A stretch of DNA of 64,000 bases from Fibrobacter sp. (GTDB lineage: Bacteria > Fibrobacterota > Fibrobacteria > Fibrobacterales > Fibrobacteraceae): assembly GCA_017475045.1 (NCBI GenBank), contig JAFVGH010000097.1, positions 1 to 64,000 of the forward strand, read 5' to 3'. Within the stretch, counting starts at the first letter, position 1; each line of letters begins with the position of its first letter. The translations under genes were made by a program, and so were the position numbers. The notes beneath the pieces are model-generated. The model saw nothing but the letters and a program-made list of their open reading frames with translations. It had not been told where the DNA came from and ran no database searches. Below, in pieces: positions 29,602-64,000 of the stretch.

Positions 29602-32481
29602 CTATTTCTTTGTAGTCGAATATCCTTTGGGCAATTCTTTTTTTACGGCGGGTTCTGGAGAAAGGCCGTTCATTCTGTAGTAATCTTCACTCCAAATTAT
29701 ATTTCCGCAACCTTTCCCATTAGAATTGTAATTTGTGCAACCTAAGAAATATCTGCCATCTTTTTGTAGACGGGCAATCATGTATCCATCGCATTTATCA
29801 CACTTTTGAATGGCTAATTTCCCCGCTTCAATTTTGTTTGTCATAAAATCGCAAATTTCAGGGTCATTCATACAAATCCACAGATTTAAGCCATAAGCGG
29901 CTTTGACCTTATGTTGAAGGGGATACCCACACATTGGACAGAATTTTTTAAATGCTAGGCCCTGTTTAAGTTCCTCGTTCCATTCTCCTTTTAAAACAAC
30001 ATTTTTATAGTCGTGTTTTATTTCCAAAAGAAATTCAGATGGATTCTCTTCTGGAGCAATGAAAAAAACTCGGTTTTTTGTTCGAGTCATCGCTACGTAA
30101 AAAAGGCGACGTTCTTCTGCGGCTTCAATCGAATCATCTCTTTTTACTACGTAACTTAGAACAGGGTCGTTCTCAATTTTTGAAGGAAAACCATAAGTTT
30201 CATTTTTTCCGTTAATGACTATCACGTTGTCGTATCCCAATCCCTTTGACGCATGCGCAGTCATAAAGGTTATTTTTAGTTCAGGGTGTTTGAGGCATTT
30301 TATTTTGTTTCCATAGTCCTTATATTCAAAAAGACTTGAACGCTCTAGGTTCTTTCCGTCAAAGCCGAATCGACCTAGCAGAAGGATTTCTTGCTTTTTA
30401 CTGTCTTTTCCTTCTAACTTGTTGTAGTCTATAATTTTCTCCAAAGCGGTTTCAACAGACTTTGCTAGGTTGTAATTTGAATTCCCGCCAAAACGTTTTT
30501 GTTTAGAGTCATAGGTGTAAATGATTACGGGGTCTTTTATTGTTTTAGGAGATTTTAGCGTTTTCTTAATCTGAGCGGTATTTTTTTGAATGAAATTACC
30601 GGCAATGTCAATCACTTCTTGTGAGTTTCGGTATGTTTTTGTTATCTTCAGAAGCTCCGCATAACCCATAATATCAGAAAATTTCGTAAACAGTGTTATG
30701 TCCGAACCACTAAACGCGTAGATTGATTGCCAGTCATCACCAACAGCGATTATTTTCGCGTTCGTAACGTCATGTAAAGCCCCCACTAAATCAAAACGCT
30801 GACGAGATATATCTTGATATTCGTCTACAATTATATATTTAAAATCAATTTGGTTGCTTACGGTTTTTGATTCTTTTAGAAGTTTCGCCGATTTGTTAAT
30901 CATGTCAGAAAAATCAATGGCATTATTCTTGTGAAGAAACCGCTCGTATTCAAGATAGCATTCTTTGCAAATTCCTAAGAAAAGTTTTGTGCGAACGTTT
31001 CTTGTCTGCGTTGCCCATTCGTCAAATTGTTCTACAGGATATCCATTCGTTTTAAAGTTTGATATAAATCGATCAACAAGATTAATGAGCTTTCTGATAT
31101 ATCTACTGGAATCTTGATTTGAGATTTTTCTCATCACATCTCTATTGTCACGAGGTATTAGAACAAAACCTTGTGATTCCAATTTTTCTTTTAAGTGCAC
31201 GAGCAAAGTTCTTCCGTCATTGTATTGAGAACACGTGCAAATAAGATTTGTTCCGTGCAGGCGGTGGAGTGCGACTTTGTCATGTATCGCTTTTTTATAT
31301 TTCTTTAATTCTTCATCCGTATATCGATTGCTATATCCATCCTCAGTTACCCCAAAATGCTCAATATACGCTTCTTTGCCATTCTGGCGGATGATAAAAT
31401 CAGGTGTATAAGGCTTTTTGGCTCCTTCTATGTTATATTTGTAACAAGGTTCATATTCGTAATCAACGTTGTTCAAATAAAGAAAATTTGCGATTTGAAC
31501 TTCTTCTTGAGAGCGTAAGATCTCATTTTGAATTGTCTCGTACTTCTTTGATCTTGAATTTTTAATTTCTATTCGGGACTCAACTTCTCCAAGTTCTCCT
31601 TTCATGGTTGTAAAATTAGAATTTGATAATTTTGCGTAAAAGTCATTTTTGTTTTTTACTTCAATTGGAGCGTCGAAATAACTTGCAAAAAAATTGATTA
31701 AATCGTCAACAAGTTTTGGGTTTTGTAAGACTGAATCACGAAAGTAATCCTCAAGGACGAAATACAATTTCTCATTTTGTACGATGTTCAATTTGTCAAC
31801 ATCGTCTTTGTGAAGAATTGCATTTCCTGTCGAGTGAAATGTTGTTATTGGACAATCAATATTGAGTTGCTGGTTAATTTTTTCTCGTAATTCGCCAACT
31901 GCTTTGTTTGTGAAGGATACGACAAGAATTTTGCGTGGATCAATATTCTTCTTTTCTACAAGGTATTTTACTTTTGCGGCAACAGTCGTAGTTTTTCCTG
32001 CTCCCGCCCCTGCAATAACAAGACAATAATCCTCATCTGTGAGAACTACCCGTCGCTGATCGTCATCAAGCATGATGTTTGGATCAATGTTATGCAAAAT
32101 AGAATCAAGATAGCCTTTTTCGGTTTCTAGCTTTTGCGCGATATAGGATTCGTTGTGATTAGAAACAAGATCCCTGATACTAGAATACTTTTGAATGACA
32201 GAAAGTAGGTCTGTATCAGAAATAGAATTTTTTTTGCAAAAATCAATAAGCAAATTATCGTTTTTCAACTGCTGAAAGTAATGAACGACATTTTTTGTTG
32301 AATCTATCCTTTTTAGATAGTCAGATTTTGCGATGTATGAATCAGAAGAGAGTAATTTATTTATAAAATCATTTAGTTCAAAAATTTCGCTAATTTTGGG
32401 ATTCTGCGCATGCGAAGATGCTTCTGCTTTCTTTTGTGGAATCGTACGCTTAATTCCGAAGATGCGACTTAAGAAAGACAT
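29602..32481 (-). CDS. UvrD-like helicase with inserted PD-(D/E)xK nuclease and zinc ribbons
   Basis: This 959-residue superfamily 1 helicase shows Walker A AGAGAGKTTT (about 157-166), SFTNKAV, Walker B IIVDEYQDIS (about 551-560), GDDWQSIYAFSGS, TAHASKGLGYD and a final VAMTRTKNRV. Between the 1A region and Walker B lies an insert (about 325-440) with YEPCYKY, PYTPDFII (Asp361) and YIEHFG (Glu374), the spacing of a PD-(D/E)xK nuclease. The C-terminus has topoisomerase-type C4 zinc ribbons (CPMC, then CDKC with CGN). Residues 1-130 are helical and unassigned. Codon and base use are AT-rich. It may act in DNA end processing or anti-phage defence, possibly with the convergent HNH gene. Confidence 0.88.
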   Translation of the reverse strand: MSFLSRIFGIKRTIPQKKAEASSHAQNPKISEIFELNDFINKLLSSDSYIAKSDYLKRIDSTKNVVHYFQQLKNDNLLIDFCKKNSISDTDLLSVIQKYSSIRDLVSNHNESYIAQKLETEKGYLDSILHNIDPNIMLDDDQRRVVLTDEDYCLVIAGAGAGKTTTVAAKVKYLVEKKNIDPRKILVVSFTNKAVGELREKINQQLNIDCPITTFHSTGNAILHKDDVDKLNIVQNEKLYFVLEDYFRDSVLQNPKLVDDLINFFASYFDAPIEVKNKNDFYAKLSNSNFTTMKGELGEVESRIEIKNSRSKKYETIQNEILRSQEEVQIANFLYLNNVDYEYEPCYKYNIEGAKKPYTPDFIIRQNGKEAYIEHFGVTEDGYSNRYTDEELKKYKKAIHDKVALHRLHGTNLICTCSQYNDGRTLLVHLKEKLESQGFVLIPRDNRDVMRKISNQDSSRYIRKLINLVDRFISNFKTNGYPVEQFDEWATQTRNVRTKLFLGICKECYLEYERFLHKNNAIDFSDMINKSAKLLKESKTVSNQIDFKYIIVDEYQDISRQRFDLVGALHDVTNAKIIAVGDDWQSIYAFSGSDITLFTKFSDIMGYAELLKITKTYRNSQEVIDIAGNFIQKNTAQIKKTLKSPKTIKDPVIIYTYDSKQKRFGGNSNYNLAKSVETALEKIIDYNKLEGKDSKKQEILLLGRFGFDGKNLERSSLFEYKDYGNKIKCLKHPELKITFMTAHASKGLGYDNVIVINGKNETYGFPSKIENDPVLSYVVKRDDSIEAAEERRLFYVAMTRTKNRVFFIAPEENPSEFLLEIKHDYKNVVLKGEWNEELKQGLAFKKFCPMCGYPLQHKVKAAYGLNLWICMNDPEICDFMTNKIEAGKLAIQKCDKCDGYMIARLQKDGRYFLGCTNYNSNGKGCGNIIWSEDYYRMNGLSPEPAVKKELPKGYSTTKK

Positions 32482-58347: not shown

Positions 58348-59238
58348 TTATTCCTCTTCCACGCCCATCAGACGCATGGCCGCTTTCCAGGTTTCCTTGT
58401 TCTCGAAACCGTCCCGCTTGCCGCCGCCGTAGCGGGCGTGGGCAAATTCCTGCACCAGGGGCTCCCAGCCTTCCAGCTGGCCGTCCTTCACCAGGGCGTC
58501 AAGGTTCACAGCGGAGGCAGCAGAAGCGTCTAGCGCGCCATCGGCGATCCCGAGGCGCCCAGCCACATAGCCCTTGCATACGCTCTCCAGCTCCAGCAGC
58601 CATTCCCGACTGTCCGCCGTATTCACCCGTTGCTTCAGGACCATCATCTGCTCCCGCAGGGCATCCTGCGCGGCATTCCTTGCAGCGCTCACCGCACGGG
58701 CCTTCGCCCTGCGCCTTGCACGCCAGAGTCCTGCACACAAAACGCACAGGGCCACCACGACCCCTACCACAACAGGCAACGGATTGAAAGGCTCGTTCAC
58801 CCGCACGGGCACGCTTTCGCTGCGCAGGTCCAGCGGTCGACCCACCTGTGTCGGAATCTCGAACCTGAGTGCCGGCACATTCAGGCTACCCGTATCTTCA
58901 GCCACAATCTTATAAGTAAAGGTGATAGAGGCGATTTCGGCACCGTCCTTCACAGAGCGGGCGGACTCCTGGGACACACCTATCTGGGTAAGGCCTTTCG
59001 CATTGGCAGACCCCGTGGGCACCACCAGCAAGGCACTCCCCTGAACACTCCAGCTCACCGTCACCGGAAATTCAAAGGTGTCGCCCACGGTAACCGCAGG
59101 CAAGCCTCCCTCGGGCCCCGACGTTATAGATATACCCAGCTGCTCGGGAGTGGGCATGGCCACTTCGGCAACGGAATCCACACCCACAGCGGCGCTATCC
59201 ACGGCACCGGCGTCCATACTTAAAGAATCACTTTCCAT
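58348..59238 (-). CDS. BatD-like membrane protein
   Basis: This 296-residue protein has an Asp/Ser/Ala-rich N-terminus, a beta-rich domain (about 25-145: VGDTFEFPVTVSWSVQGSAL, ITFTYKIVAEDTGSLNVPAL) of the type found in BatD/oxygen-tolerance proteins, one membrane helix (about 153-175) and a cytoplasmic helical tail. No signal peptide is visible, so topology is unclear. The frame runs to 59319, but ATG 59238 is preceded by a TATATT box 8 nt upstream, which I take as the start. BatD normally works with MoxR; the only moxR in view is at 47610. Confidence 0.65.
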   Translation of the reverse strand: MESDSLSMDAGAVDSAAVGVDSVAEVAMPTPEQLGISITSGPEGGLPAVTVGDTFEFPVTVSWSVQGSALLVVPTGSANAKGLTQIGVSQESARSVKDGAEIASITFTYKIVAEDTGSLNVPALRFEIPTQVGRPLDLRSESVPVRVNEPFNPLPVVVGVVVALCVLCAGLWRARRRAKARAVSAARNAAQDALREQMMVLKQRVNTADSREWLLELESVCKGYVAGRLGIADGALDASAASAVNLDALVKDGQLEGWEPLVQEFAHARYGGGKRDGFENKETWKAAMRLMGVEEE

Positions 59239-59246
59239 ATTTCTAG

Positions 59247-59252
59247 AATATA
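59247..59252 (-). promoter_or_regulatory. TATATT box of the BatD-like gene
   Basis: Read on the minus strand, TATATT lies 8 nt from the ATG at 59238, with no Shine-Dalgarno. Confidence 0.45.
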
Positions 59253-59269
59253 CAAAAAGGTGAGCCGTA

Positions 59270-59354
59270 GGCGACTCGTACTGACGAGTCGCTGCAGGCG
59301 AGCTTTGGACACTTAGCACTTTAGTGCTTAGTGTACATGGCCACCTTTAGGTGG
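59270..59354. other. Three consecutive perfect or near-perfect hairpins
   Basis: GCGACTCGT-ACTG-ACGAGTCGC (9 bp), ACACTTAGCACT-TT-AGTGCTTAGTGT (11 of 12 bp) and CCACCT-TT-AGGTGG (6 bp) follow each other within 85 bases between the BatD-like and sigma-factor genes. No coding frame is supported. It may be a non-coding RNA or a repeat-derived insertion. Confidence 0.6.
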
Positions 59355-60323: not shown

Positions 60324-60521
60324 AAAGAACAAAATTTTACAACTTGGCATAAAAACGCCCTTTATCGCCCTTAAATCGGGCCTAAAGATACAAAAATTTG
60401 TCACGTATTTCAAACTTTGTCATCTTTTTATTACAAAATCAAATAAAAATGACGGTCAGCGCCCCTTTTATCGTAATTCATTGATACTCCGCAAGATACA
60501 TTTTCGTATATTTTGCCGGTT

Positions 60522-61301
60522 ATGACAATCAAAGAACCCGACCAGTCCGTATGGAATCGTTTTTGGAAACGCAAAAACGACATGAACAAGGTTTATCCTT
60601 CGTCACCCTCGGTGCTGGAAGCTATTAAAAAGAATTTCAATCCCGCAGGCATGAAGATCCTGGAAGTAGGAGCAGGCACCGGTCGCGATAGCGCCGAGCT
60701 CGCCCGCATGGGCGCCCAGGTCTACGTGCTAGACTTTGCAGAGAACAGCCTGAAGATCGTAGACGGCCTCCGCGCAAAGGACAACCTCTACGAAAGCCTG
60801 AAGCTTGTCCGGGGCGACGCCTTCAAGGCACCCTTCCCCGACAACACCTTCGACCTGGTCTTTCACCAGGGTCTTGCCGAACACTTCAAGGATTCGCTCC
60901 CGCTGATCAAGGAAAACTTCCGTATCCTGAAACACGGCGGGCACTGCCTCTGCGACGTTCCACAGACAGTACACCCCTACACCGTCATCAAGCATATCCT
61001 GATTGCCATGGACAAGTGGTTCGCCGGTTGGGAAAAGCAGTTCACCATGCCCCAGCTGAAAAAGCTCATGGCCGACGCCGGATTCGAATGCGTCTACCAG
61101 TATGGCGACTGGATGCGTCCGAACCTGTTCTACCGCATGGCCCGTGAATTCTGCTTCAAGTTCGGCGTGGAACTCCCCAAGTACCCGCTGCAGGGGACCG
61201 CCTACCAGAAGGCGAAGGACCGTATCTTGAACTCCCTGGAATCCAACCCGCTGATGCACTACACGCAGCTGAGCATAGGAGTCCTGGGCCGTAAGCCCTA
61301 G
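60522..61301 (+). CDS. Class I SAM-dependent methyltransferase
   Basis: This 259-residue protein has the Rossmann motif I ILEVGAGTGRDSAELARMGA, an acidic motif II (VYVLDFAENS) and FDLVFHQGLAEHF, as in Methyltransf_11/25 proteins. The substrate is unknown. A TATATT box (60507-60512) ends 9 nt before the ATG and no ribosome-binding site is seen. It is followed after 3 nt by a YbhN-type membrane protein, so an envelope lipid or glycolipid substrate is a reasonable guess. Confidence 0.85.
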   Translation: MTIKEPDQSVWNRFWKRKNDMNKVYPSSPSVLEAIKKNFNPAGMKILEVGAGTGRDSAELARMGAQVYVLDFAENSLKIVDGLRAKDNLYESLKLVRGDAFKAPFPDNTFDLVFHQGLAEHFKDSLPLIKENFRILKHGGHCLCDVPQTVHPYTVIKHILIAMDKWFAGWEKQFTMPQLKKLMADAGFECVYQYGDWMRPNLFYRMAREFCFKFGVELPKYPLQGTAYQKAKDRILNSLESNPLMHYTQLSIGVLGRKP

Positions 61302-61304
61302 TCC

Positions 61305-62309
61305 ATGAAGTTACCCCCGAAGCTCAAATCCGCATTGGTGTTTCTACTGAAGCTCACGGTGACTATTGTCCCCGCGTATCTCGTGTACCGAAACATCGTG
61401 AGCGATCCGGACTGGGACATCGGGGACCTGTACCGGCTGTTCTCTACGCAGAGCCTGCTGCCGCTCTCGCTTGCAATACTCTGCCTCGCCCTTTCCAACT
61501 TCACGGCCTGCCTGCAGTGGAAACTTTTGCTCGAGCGGCAGGGCGTGAACCTGAAATACGGCCACCTGCTGAAGCTTTACTACGTGGGGCTGTTCTTCAA
61601 CAACTTCATGCCAGGAAACGTGGGCGGCGACGTAAAGAAGGTCTACGATATCCGCATGCAGGGCGGCCAGGACAGCGTCGGCGCAGGGCTTACCGCCACC
61701 TTCTTCGACAGGCTCTTCGGGCTTTTCTTCGTGACGCTCTTTACGCTTGGCATGGGGCTTCTGTTCTTTATGCACGACGATGCCCAGCGGGCATTCATGT
61801 GGCCTTCGGTCTGGATCTTTCTAGGGTTCTGTGCCCTGCTGGGCGGGCTTTGCAGCCGGCGGCTAGGGCGGTTGGGCCACAAGGTTTTTTCCAGAATCTT
61901 GCCGAAGGGCATCAGTTCGCGCATGGAGCACATGTTCGAACGTTTTCAGAATTTCCAGTCCAAAAAACTGATGGCACAGATTACCGGCATTTCGGCGGTG
62001 ACGCAGTCCCTCAGAATCTTCGTGCACTTTTTCTGCGGCATCGCCATCGGCGTAGACCTTTCTATCTCCTGGTATTTCTACTACATTCCGCTGGTGGCCA
62101 TCGTAAGCGCCCTGCCCATTTCTATTGGCGGGTTTGGCCCCAGGGAATTTTTGGCCCAGTCCCTGTTTGCCCGTGCCGGAGTGCCTGGCCTTGAATCGGT
62201 AGTGATCCAGCTGCTCGCCTATTTTGTAAGTTTGTTGTTGAGCCTGTTCGGTGGTTTTGCCTTCTTGCTTGGCGGCCGCCCGAATGTTTCGGACAAGGAA
62301 ACCACCTAG
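61305..62309 (+). CDS. YbhN / lysylphosphatidylglycerol synthase TM-region protein
   Basis: This 334-residue membrane protein has about eight hydrophobic helices and the LPG_synthase_TM (UPF0104) signatures: YYVGLFFNNFMPGNVGGDVK and LPISIGGFGPREFLAQSLFA. The family is thought to move or flip lipids or lipid-linked sugars. It lies 3 nt after the methyltransferase gene and 59 nt before a gene with a PlsC-like part, suggesting a lipid-related cluster. Confidence 0.88.
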   Translation: MKLPPKLKSALVFLLKLTVTIVPAYLVYRNIVSDPDWDIGDLYRLFSTQSLLPLSLAILCLALSNFTACLQWKLLLERQGVNLKYGHLLKLYYVGLFFNNFMPGNVGGDVKKVYDIRMQGGQDSVGAGLTATFFDRLFGLFFVTLFTLGMGLLFFMHDDAQRAFMWPSVWIFLGFCALLGGLCSRRLGRLGHKVFSRILPKGISSRMEHMFERFQNFQSKKLMAQITGISAVTQSLRIFVHFFCGIAIGVDLSISWYFYYIPLVAIVSALPISIGGFGPREFLAQSLFARAGVPGLESVVIQLLAYFVSLLLSLFGGFAFLLGGRPNVSDKETT

Positions 62310-62368: not shown

Positions 62369-64000
62369 ATGGATGCCGAGAGCATCTTGAACGGTCTGAA
62401 CGGAGACCAGCGTAATGCCGTATTGCATGACCACAAACAAAACGGGGCGCTCCTGATTCTTGCAGGAGCGGGTTCGGGCAAAACTTCTGTACTGACCAAG
62501 CGGATCCAGTACCGTATTATGAAAGGGGTCCCGCCCGAAAAAATCCTTTCTCTCACTTTCACCGCCAAGGCCGCCGCCGAAATGCGCGAGCGCGTAGAAG
62601 CCCTATTCCCCAAGGCAGGGGTTCGGCTCTGCACCTTCCATTCCCTCGCCCTATTCATGCTCAAGCAAAAGATAGGGGAGCGCTTCGCCTACGAAATTCT
62701 CGGGTTCAACAAGATCCCCACTCCCAGGGAAACGGATAGCCGGGAATTCATGCGTGAACTTGTACGGTTGAAAATTCCAACCGCCAAACTAAACCGGGAA
62801 GAACTCTTTTCAGGCGACGTCCCCCAAGCCATAAAGAAAAAAATACAACCCATACGGCAAAACATTATTTTGTCTGGAAACGTGGTATTCGAGGACCTGA
62901 TTTACCTAGCCATCCACCTGCTGGAAACCTGCGAAGAGGCAAGAGACTATTTCCAGTCCCTTTGGGACGAAATTCTGGTGGATGAATACCAGGACATCAA
63001 TCCCTCGCAATACCGGCTGGTAAAAAACATTCTCGGAAACCGAAACGACCTGTTCGTAGTAGGCGACGACGACCAGGCCATCTACGGATTCCGCGGCGCC
63101 GACATCGGGAACATCCGCCGTTTCCAGGCCGACTTCAAGGACAGCACCCTTATCCGCCTGGAATGGAACTACCGCTCCGTACCAAACGTATTGCACCTGG
63201 CAAACGACATCTTCGTGAACAAGCCCGTAGCGCTACGCAAGGTGCTCCGGGCAGGCAACCCGAAAGGCTCCGGCGGCAACAGGATTTTCACCGAGAACCG
63301 CAGGCCCGAAGTCTGGGTGTCGGACAACCCCATCGAGGAGGTGGAAAAAATAAAGAACGCCATCTTCTCCCTACGCAACGAATACGGACTACTCTGGAAA
63401 AACTTCGCCATACTGGTGCGGTACAACCGGCAACGGCAATACTTCGAAGAGGCCCTGCGGGAAGGAGAAATCCCCATCGCCGGGGACCACCTTGCAGGAG
63501 ACCTGGTGCTAGAAGACGGTATCCACATCGAGACTGTTCACGCCTCCAAGGGGCTCCAGTACGCCGTTGTCTTTTATGCAGGCCTGGCCGAAGGATTCAC
63601 GCCGGGCAAGTGCGAAGGTAGCCACAAACAGCGAAAAGCGCAAATGGAAGAAGAAAGGCGCCTGTATTACGTCGGGGTGACCCGTGCCGAATCGTTCCTT
63701 GTTTTGCTATATTGCAAACAGAGGTATTGGAAAGGGAAACTGCTGAAACTGAAGCCCTCCCGTTTCTTGCCCCGCAAACAACCGCAACCCAGATGGACCA
63801 TGCCTGTTATTTTGTTTAGAATATACGTGGTAATTGTAGTGCTCTCCTACATGTTCGCCCATATCCTGGCACTGCCCTTTATCTTGATTGCTTGCGGAAA
63901 AAATTTCAACACCTGGTTCGAAGGAAAAATCCAACGGTTCTCCCGTTTCTGCATGAAGGTGCTGCGGGTAGATTTGGAAATCAAGGACCAGGCGACGCTC
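62369..64000 (+). CDS. Compact UvrD-like helicase fused to a PlsC-like acyltransferase (partial)
   Basis: One open frame of 544 codons continues past the window end. Residues 1-450 are a short superfamily 1 helicase: LAGAGSGKTS (31-40), LTFTAKAAAEMRER, LVDEYQDINPSQ (203-214), VVGDDDQAIYGFRGAD, TVHASKGLQY and LYYVGVTRAE. It lacks most of the 1B/2B subdomains of PcrA/UvrD (about 720 residues). After a basic linker (about 451-476) come a membrane helix (about 478-508) and WFEGKIQRFSRFCMKVLRVD, typical of the region before the HX4D box of 1-acylglycerol-3-phosphate acyltransferases. The HX4D box itself is beyond the window. A TAA stands directly before the ATG, so 62369 is the first possible start. 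No frameshift or stop separates the halves. Confidence 0.75.
   Translation, partial: MDAESILNGLNGDQRNAVLHDHKQNGALLILAGAGSGKTSVLTKRIQYRIMKGVPPEKILSLTFTAKAAAEMRERVEALFPKAGVRLCTFHSLALFMLKQKIGERFAYEILGFNKIPTPRETDSREFMRELVRLKIPTAKLNREELFSGDVPQAIKKKIQPIRQNIILSGNVVFEDLIYLAIHLLETCEEARDYFQSLWDEILVDEYQDINPSQYRLVKNILGNRNDLFVVGDDDQAIYGFRGADIGNIRRFQADFKDSTLIRLEWNYRSVPNVLHLANDIFVNKPVALRKVLRAGNPKGSGGNRIFTENRRPEVWVSDNPIEEVEKIKNAIFSLRNEYGLLWKNFAILVRYNRQRQYFEEALREGEIPIAGDHLAGDLVLEDGIHIETVHASKGLQYAVVFYAGLAEGFTPGKCEGSHKQRKAQMEEERRLYYVGVTRAESFLVLLYCKQRYWKGKLLKLKPSRFLPRKQPQPRWTMPVILFRIYVVIVVLSYMFAHILALPFILIACGKNFNTWFEGKIQRFSRFCMKVLRVDLEIKDQATL

Follow-up and report, generated by a model that had tools for sequence, protein, structure and literature searches.

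A 2B-less helicase fused to a PlsC-family acyltransferase in the family of Fibrobacter, with a start codon kept at the boundary between the two enzymes

The stretch of DNA analyzed here, 64,000 nucleotides from a Fibrobacter sp. assembly and hereafter called the window, closes within an open reading frame in which a UvrD-like helicase runs directly into a PlsC-like acyltransferase. Such a frame raises the question of whether two enzymes of this kind are truly held in one chain, how they came to be joined, and whether the gene yields one product or two. The reading that we favor, with reasonable rather than full confidence, is that of a bifunctional, membrane-held chain that was fused once, with a free PlsC made in addition in ten other genera by means of an internal start that would have decayed in Fibrobacter.

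Domain anatomy of the fused chain

The frame begins with the ATG at position 62369 and stays open to the end of the window, with 544 codons inside it. The window represents positions 1–64000 of a contig of 157,490 bases and truncates the frame; the remainder lies on the same contig, where a stop at position 64525 gives 718 codons and thus a protein of 718 amino acids in total. The fused chain comprises a UvrD/PcrA/Rep-type helicase that lacks the 2B subdomain, in its N-terminal two thirds, and a complete PlsC-family acyltransferase in its C-terminal third (Table 1). The original prediction had read a helicase, a membrane helix, and the start of a PlsC-like domain in this single frame, and Pfam recovers all of the domains in one protein, namely UvrD-helicase (E-value of 6e-60) and UvrD_C (7e-27), which together cover residues 10–451, and Acyltransferase PF01553 (2e-21) at residues 550–662.

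Table 1. Coordinates of the fused frame, its parts, and its upstream neighbors in the window
Feature	Position	Strand	Remarks
Class I SAM methyltransferase, upstream neighbor	60513..61301	+	
LPG_synthase_TM / YbhN-type membrane protein, upstream neighbor	61305..62309	+	
Fused ORF, in-window part	62369..64000	+	Residues 1–544 of 718; runs on to contig position 64525
UvrD/PcrA-type SF1A helicase core without 2B subdomain	62369..63769	+	Residues 1–467
Variable linker, 10 residues	63770..63799	+	Residues 468–477; dN/dS ~0.7 in the window clade
In-frame ATG (Met478) at the ancestral PlsC start	63800..63802	+	
PlsC N-terminal membrane-associated helix	63800..63961	+	Residues 478–531
PlsC catalytic domain, beginning	63962..64000	+	Residues 532–544; HX4D and FPEGTR beyond the window end

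The helicase half contains SF1A motifs I–VI with the catalytic K, DE, Q, R, and R all present; the segments GAGSGKT, DEYQD, GDDDQAIYGFRG, NYRS, VHASKGL, and VGVTRA are those which we take to be motifs I, II, III, IV, V, and VI, respectively. These motifs, their order, and the core fold are shared with the SF1A helicases UvrD, PcrA, and Rep, the nearest of which by both sequence and fold is PcrA (1PJR). However, residues 378–557 of PcrA are bridged by residues 370–383 of the query, and residues 374–550 of UvrD likewise; thus, where PcrA has about 178 residues of 2B, the fused helicase has about 12, and it carries the PlsC in addition at its C-terminus. The NCBIfam equivalog cut-offs are missed for PcrA (302 versus 911 bits), UvrD (253 versus 1144 bits), and Rep (279 versus 951 bits). 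Further, longer UvrD-like frames occur in the same genomes, and compact helicases of a similar kind are encoded by unfused genes in other families of the phylum. Outside the phylum, a compact helicase of similar length was observed in Candidatus Omnitrophota (L097), in a match of 1428 bases for residues 10–467. The window itself holds a second UvrD/RecB-like helicase frame on the minus strand (30064–32070; 962 amino acids from stop to stop), with a weak match to P0001. As regards a defence helicase of the GajB or DRT type, the PADLOC matches of the fused frame to RTasHel and to many GajB models are generic helicase-core matches, and no Gabija-type nuclease partner was recognized among the neighbors read or scanned, which encode a methyltransferase, a YbhN-type protein, a racemase, and a Fic protein.

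A natural SF1A helicase without 2B is known from Mycoplasma pneumoniae, in which PcrA-s (MPN340), of about 530 codons, is described as highly active; it shares the absence of 2B with the fused helicase, and the accessible part of that source reports no acyltransferase fusion for it (PMC3720892). In Rep, the 2B subdomain is autoinhibitory according to the accessible part of PMC13238157. Given this inhibitory role of 2B in Rep, the 2B-less motor would probably be constitutively active, and we regard the helicase half, by this analogy, as probably an active, unregulated motor. A regulatory ATPase, which would sense nucleic acid or ATP and control PlsC with no unwinding, might be suggested by the physical linkage to a biosynthetic enzyme and by the loss of 2B; however, all of the sampled helicase motif residues are invariant, and PcrA-s proteins, which lack 2B naturally, have helicase activity, as far as the accessible text of PMC3720892 goes, so such a role for the helicase half appears improbable.

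In the acyltransferase half, the HX4D box, for which the original prediction had looked to an extension of the contig, is present past the window end as HNSYAD at residues 559–564, and FPEGTR follows at residues 628–633. The PF01553 score is 76.6 bits against a gathering cut-off of 23, and TIGR00530 scores 83.9 bits, under its cut-off of 103. In the structure model (mean pLDDT of 79; pTM of 0.68), a long helix at residues 480–531 precedes the catalytic fold, which identifies the membrane helix of the original prediction as the N-terminal helix of PlsC. Foldseek aligned this predicted model with the PlsC of Thermotoga maritima (5kym) at a TM-score of 0.81 by target length and an rmsd of 2.9, and phmmer matched the same protein with an E-value of 2e-14. 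Both proteins share the complete domain, including the N-terminal helices and the HX4D and FPEGTR boxes; unlike the T. maritima enzyme, the PlsC of the Fibrobacter family rides on the C-terminus of a helicase. The genome of the window contains seven PF01553 matches and the 14 genomes searched contain two to seven each, which rules out the fused PlsC as the sole PlsC of the cell; because each searched genome has other PF01553 proteins, the fused one need not be the main one.

Conservation and origin of the fusion

The fused frame is unbroken, with no stop, in 80 of 80 genomes of the window's genus. The class-wide search covered 126 genomes, 111 of which belong to the window's family (f1), and in 108 of these, from 11 genera (g1–g10 and g34), the junction is crossed in one open frame. 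The three exceptions are two genomes in which the gene is cut by contig ends, as was checked (G141 and G144), and one without the gene (G143). The latter genome, judged 98% complete, is the only one of the family in which both the fused gene and any piece of it are missing, through loss or an assembly gap, so the gene may be dispensable. A split of the fused gene was found in none of the 111 family genomes. In alignment A1, which comprises 30 loci out of an initial set of 54, all 30 members match both the UvrD and the PF01553 families; the base-by-base reading covered 66 of the 108 fused loci. About 20 to 60 extra residues near helicase residue 105 split the match in 15 of the 80 genus genomes and leave the frame intact. 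Among the best 80 of 593 stretches, the full-length matches (query residues 1–718; 67–78% identity) come from Fibrobacter succinogenes and Fibrobacter sp. MAGs; in the search of other phyla, three of those best 80 span the fusion, all of them Fibrobacter. Among the hits listed from the open-licence literature, no title or abstract describes a helicase–PlsC fusion protein.

The original prediction had turned to relatives to decide between a shared fusion and two separate genes disturbed by a frame error; the relatives in the genus and the family share the fusion and keep the junction open. The assembly of the window is fragmented (167 contigs; 7.1% contamination), which could lend weight to a stop or frameshift missed in assembly or sequencing, but all 80 independent genomes of the genus show the frame intact; such an artefact, like a recent loss of a stop, is thereby ruled out and retains a negligible probability.

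Strong purifying selection acts on both halves throughout the family. Among the 12 loci of the window clade, the NG86 estimate of dN/dS, taken as a ratio of means, comes to 0.066 in the helicase, 0.10 in the N-terminal helix of PlsC, 0.05 in its catalytic part, and 0.70 in the linker of ten residues. Across the 66 loci, K38, T39, D205, E206, Q236, R269, H391, and R439 of the helicase and H559, D564, E630, G631, and R633 of PlsC are identical in every covering locus, and H559 and D564 are present in all 66.

A possible precursor is found in the sister genus g12 (family f2 of the same class), in which related helicase and PlsC genes are adjacent and the PlsC starts at the same boundary as in the fusion; however, the genes occupy separate frames that overlap by four bases (ATGA/GTGA) and encode two proteins, in contrast to the one chain of the Fibrobacter family. 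The overlapping pair was present in all five g12 loci read (L057 and L173–L176), and in a sixth genome (G148) the helicase and PlsC are also neighbors. In family f11, which shares the order of the window's family, the helicase has no PlsC beside it, and the PlsC that was found falls into a different paralogue group; in family f12, the helicase and PlsC lie on different contigs. A second fusion appeared at first to exist in G125 as a frame of 902 amino acids, and was rejected since its N-terminal portion amounts to antisense noise across a different gene and the helicase stands alone. Trees were built with 20 of the 66 fused loci, with L194 excluded from the helicase tree. In the PlsC tree, the 20 fused copies all group together (81/81), with one unfused f12 PlsC next to them and then those of f2, and the other Fibrobacter PlsC rows fall outside the fused group; in the helicase tree, the 20 fused copies again group together (100/99). 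Because the trees group the fused copies and g12 keeps an unfused pair, the data are most simply read as a single fusion in the common ancestor of the family. Most likely, then, as judged from sequence comparison, the fusion arose once from an overlapping gene pair, which would have entered one frame before the family diversified. Of the fusion by stop loss that had been proposed, the recent accident or read error fails against the open junction of 108 of 111 genomes and the purifying selection, and an ancient fusion of neighboring genes is supported by the ATGA/GTGA pair.

The surroundings of the gene are less constant than the gene itself. The order in the window and along the contig is sigma factor, methyltransferase, YbhN-type gene, fusion, and murI, the last being our reading of an Asp/Glu racemase family gene (PF01177) that overlaps the stop codon of the fusion. 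Downstream of murI, a Fic-domain protein with DUF4172 is encoded on the minus strand (contig 66228–67259; L002 6228–7259), and a BatD-like domain protein, also on the minus strand, lies at window positions 58348–59319 beside an ORF read as a TPR lipoprotein. Of the 20 family loci for which flanks were available, ten have YbhN immediately upstream, eight have murI immediately downstream, and eight have none of the tested neighbors. Since the neighbors vary over these 20 loci and the fusion persists, the fusion is more stable than its neighborhood. The lipid context that the original prediction saw in the methyltransferase and YbhN-type genes is weak, as is an explanation as a lipid operon: these genes and murI, which serves the cell wall rather than lipids, are found again at only about half of the 20 loci.

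A neutral origin is a serious rival to a selected one. The two genes could have been joined by chance in the ancestor of the family and kept because both enzymes are useful, with the tether idle and the helicase a mere passenger. The short, variable, nearly unconstrained linker, the same pair kept unfused in the sister genus, and the changing gene context around a persistent fusion all accord with such a course. It is weakened, however, by the lack of splits in the 111 family genomes, although, with a start codon already present, a single stop or frameshift in the unconstrained linker would restore two genes, and we consider it doubtful.

The start codon at the PlsC boundary

All of the 66 fused loci read have a start codon at the PlsC boundary (62 ATG, 2 GTG, and 2 TTG); 60 of the ATGs stand in the aligned column and two lie one codon off, as does one of the two GTGs. 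Codon conservation alone is no proof of an internal start, because Pro479 and nearby helix residues are conserved too and the Met columns 72, 495, and 594 are equally conserved. The window's own Met478 has no Shine–Dalgarno (SD)-like sequence before it.

The SD signal was therefore judged over the wider set of loci in several ways. A first test, which scored the longest exact match at any place within a 17-base stretch that ends 3 bases ahead of the start, found at least 4 bases at 19 of 54 internal starts versus 30% of 656 other in-frame Mets, which is no clear excess. A tighter motif test gave 22 of 36 clusters versus 66 of 461 with a spacing of 4–10, a range chosen after the sequences had been inspected. 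The duplex-energy and synonymous-shuffle tests are independent of that choice. Over the 36 clusters (85% identity) of the 66 loci, the mean anti-SD pairing energy is −4.75 versus −2.62 at other in-frame Mets; synonymous shuffles average −3.02, and none of 200 sets reaches the observed mean. The start sites of two other genes, compared in 27 of the 36 clusters, average −5.16 for the helicase's own start and −7.36 for murI, whose start was found in 21. When the whole family is pooled, column 478 comes no higher than rank 83 among 689 columns, because other conserved motifs resemble SD sequences too.

When the data were split by genus, a division made after the values had been seen, the 17 non-Fibrobacter clusters (ten genera) showed a mean of −6.31, with all 17 at or below −4 kcal/mol; none of 1000 synonymous shuffles was as strong, and only columns 478–480 of 680 have every row at that strength. 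The 19 Fibrobacter clusters have a mean of −3.36, with 74 of 1000 shuffles as strong and a rank of 344 of 699 columns, which is not significant. Within the window clade, the signal is absent in 11 of 12 loci, at about +0.3 to +0.4. Outside Fibrobacter, an SD-like sequence is thus kept beyond amino-acid needs in all 17 clusters; this signal and the start codon kept at the boundary of all 66 fused loci read are what is new here. For an internal promoter, two promoter-like sites were found against 1.9 expected, which is no signal.

On these sequence grounds, the gene in the ten other genera probably yields both a tethered helicase–PlsC chain and a free PlsC, the latter by initiation at the conserved start codon within the fused frame; in Fibrobacter, the internal signal has probably decayed, and the fused chain would be the dominant product. 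Pairs of N-terminal proteoforms from in-frame internal starts are described for bacteria in the accessible part of PMC11005335. They resemble the fused gene in having two start sites in one frame; in contrast to the pairs covered there, the shorter product predicted for the fused gene is an entire second enzyme.

A stronger version would hold that the locus is in essence a nested gene for two functional proteins, in which most PlsC is translated from the internal start codon and the long chain arises as a by-product. The persistence of a start codon in all 66 loci, including the four in which TTG or GTG takes the place of ATG, and the strong SD that all 17 non-Fibrobacter clusters have, unmatched in 1000 synonymous shuffles, argue in its favor. 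However, the signal is weak in Fibrobacter and gone from nearly all of the window clade, and stops in the linker would be expected if free PlsC were the sole need, yet none appeared; we thus rate this version as rather unlikely.

Possible roles of a membrane-held helicase

Returning to the bifunctional chain that we favor, the fused product is most likely, as far as its sequence indicates, a membrane-anchored helicase with a putative working acyltransferase as its anchor. The N-terminal helices of PlsC would hold the chain at the cytoplasmic face of the inner membrane, where the helicase would work and the PlsC part would acylate lysophosphatidate; a membrane tethering of the helicase is plausible from this anatomy. 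A further step, which we advance only tentatively, is that a coupling of unwinding to phospholipid synthesis has been selected throughout the lineage, in which a constitutively active 2B-less helicase would ride on a PlsC anchor at the inner membrane and, in most genera, the internal start would set the ratio of tethered helicase to free PlsC, with Fibrobacter shifted toward the fused form.

The relatives appear to preserve a series that leads from separate genes to an overlapping pair, to a fused gene with an internal start, and to a fused gene in which that start has decayed, so that the way in which a fusion protein originates is open to direct tests. The locus also illustrates that ORF calling can hide a second product within a fused frame. 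Since helicases and acyltransferases serve separate functions in the cell, a fusion kept across a whole family suggests a selected reason for their joining; candidate reasons are that a DNA motor is placed at the membrane or that its level is tied to lipid synthesis.
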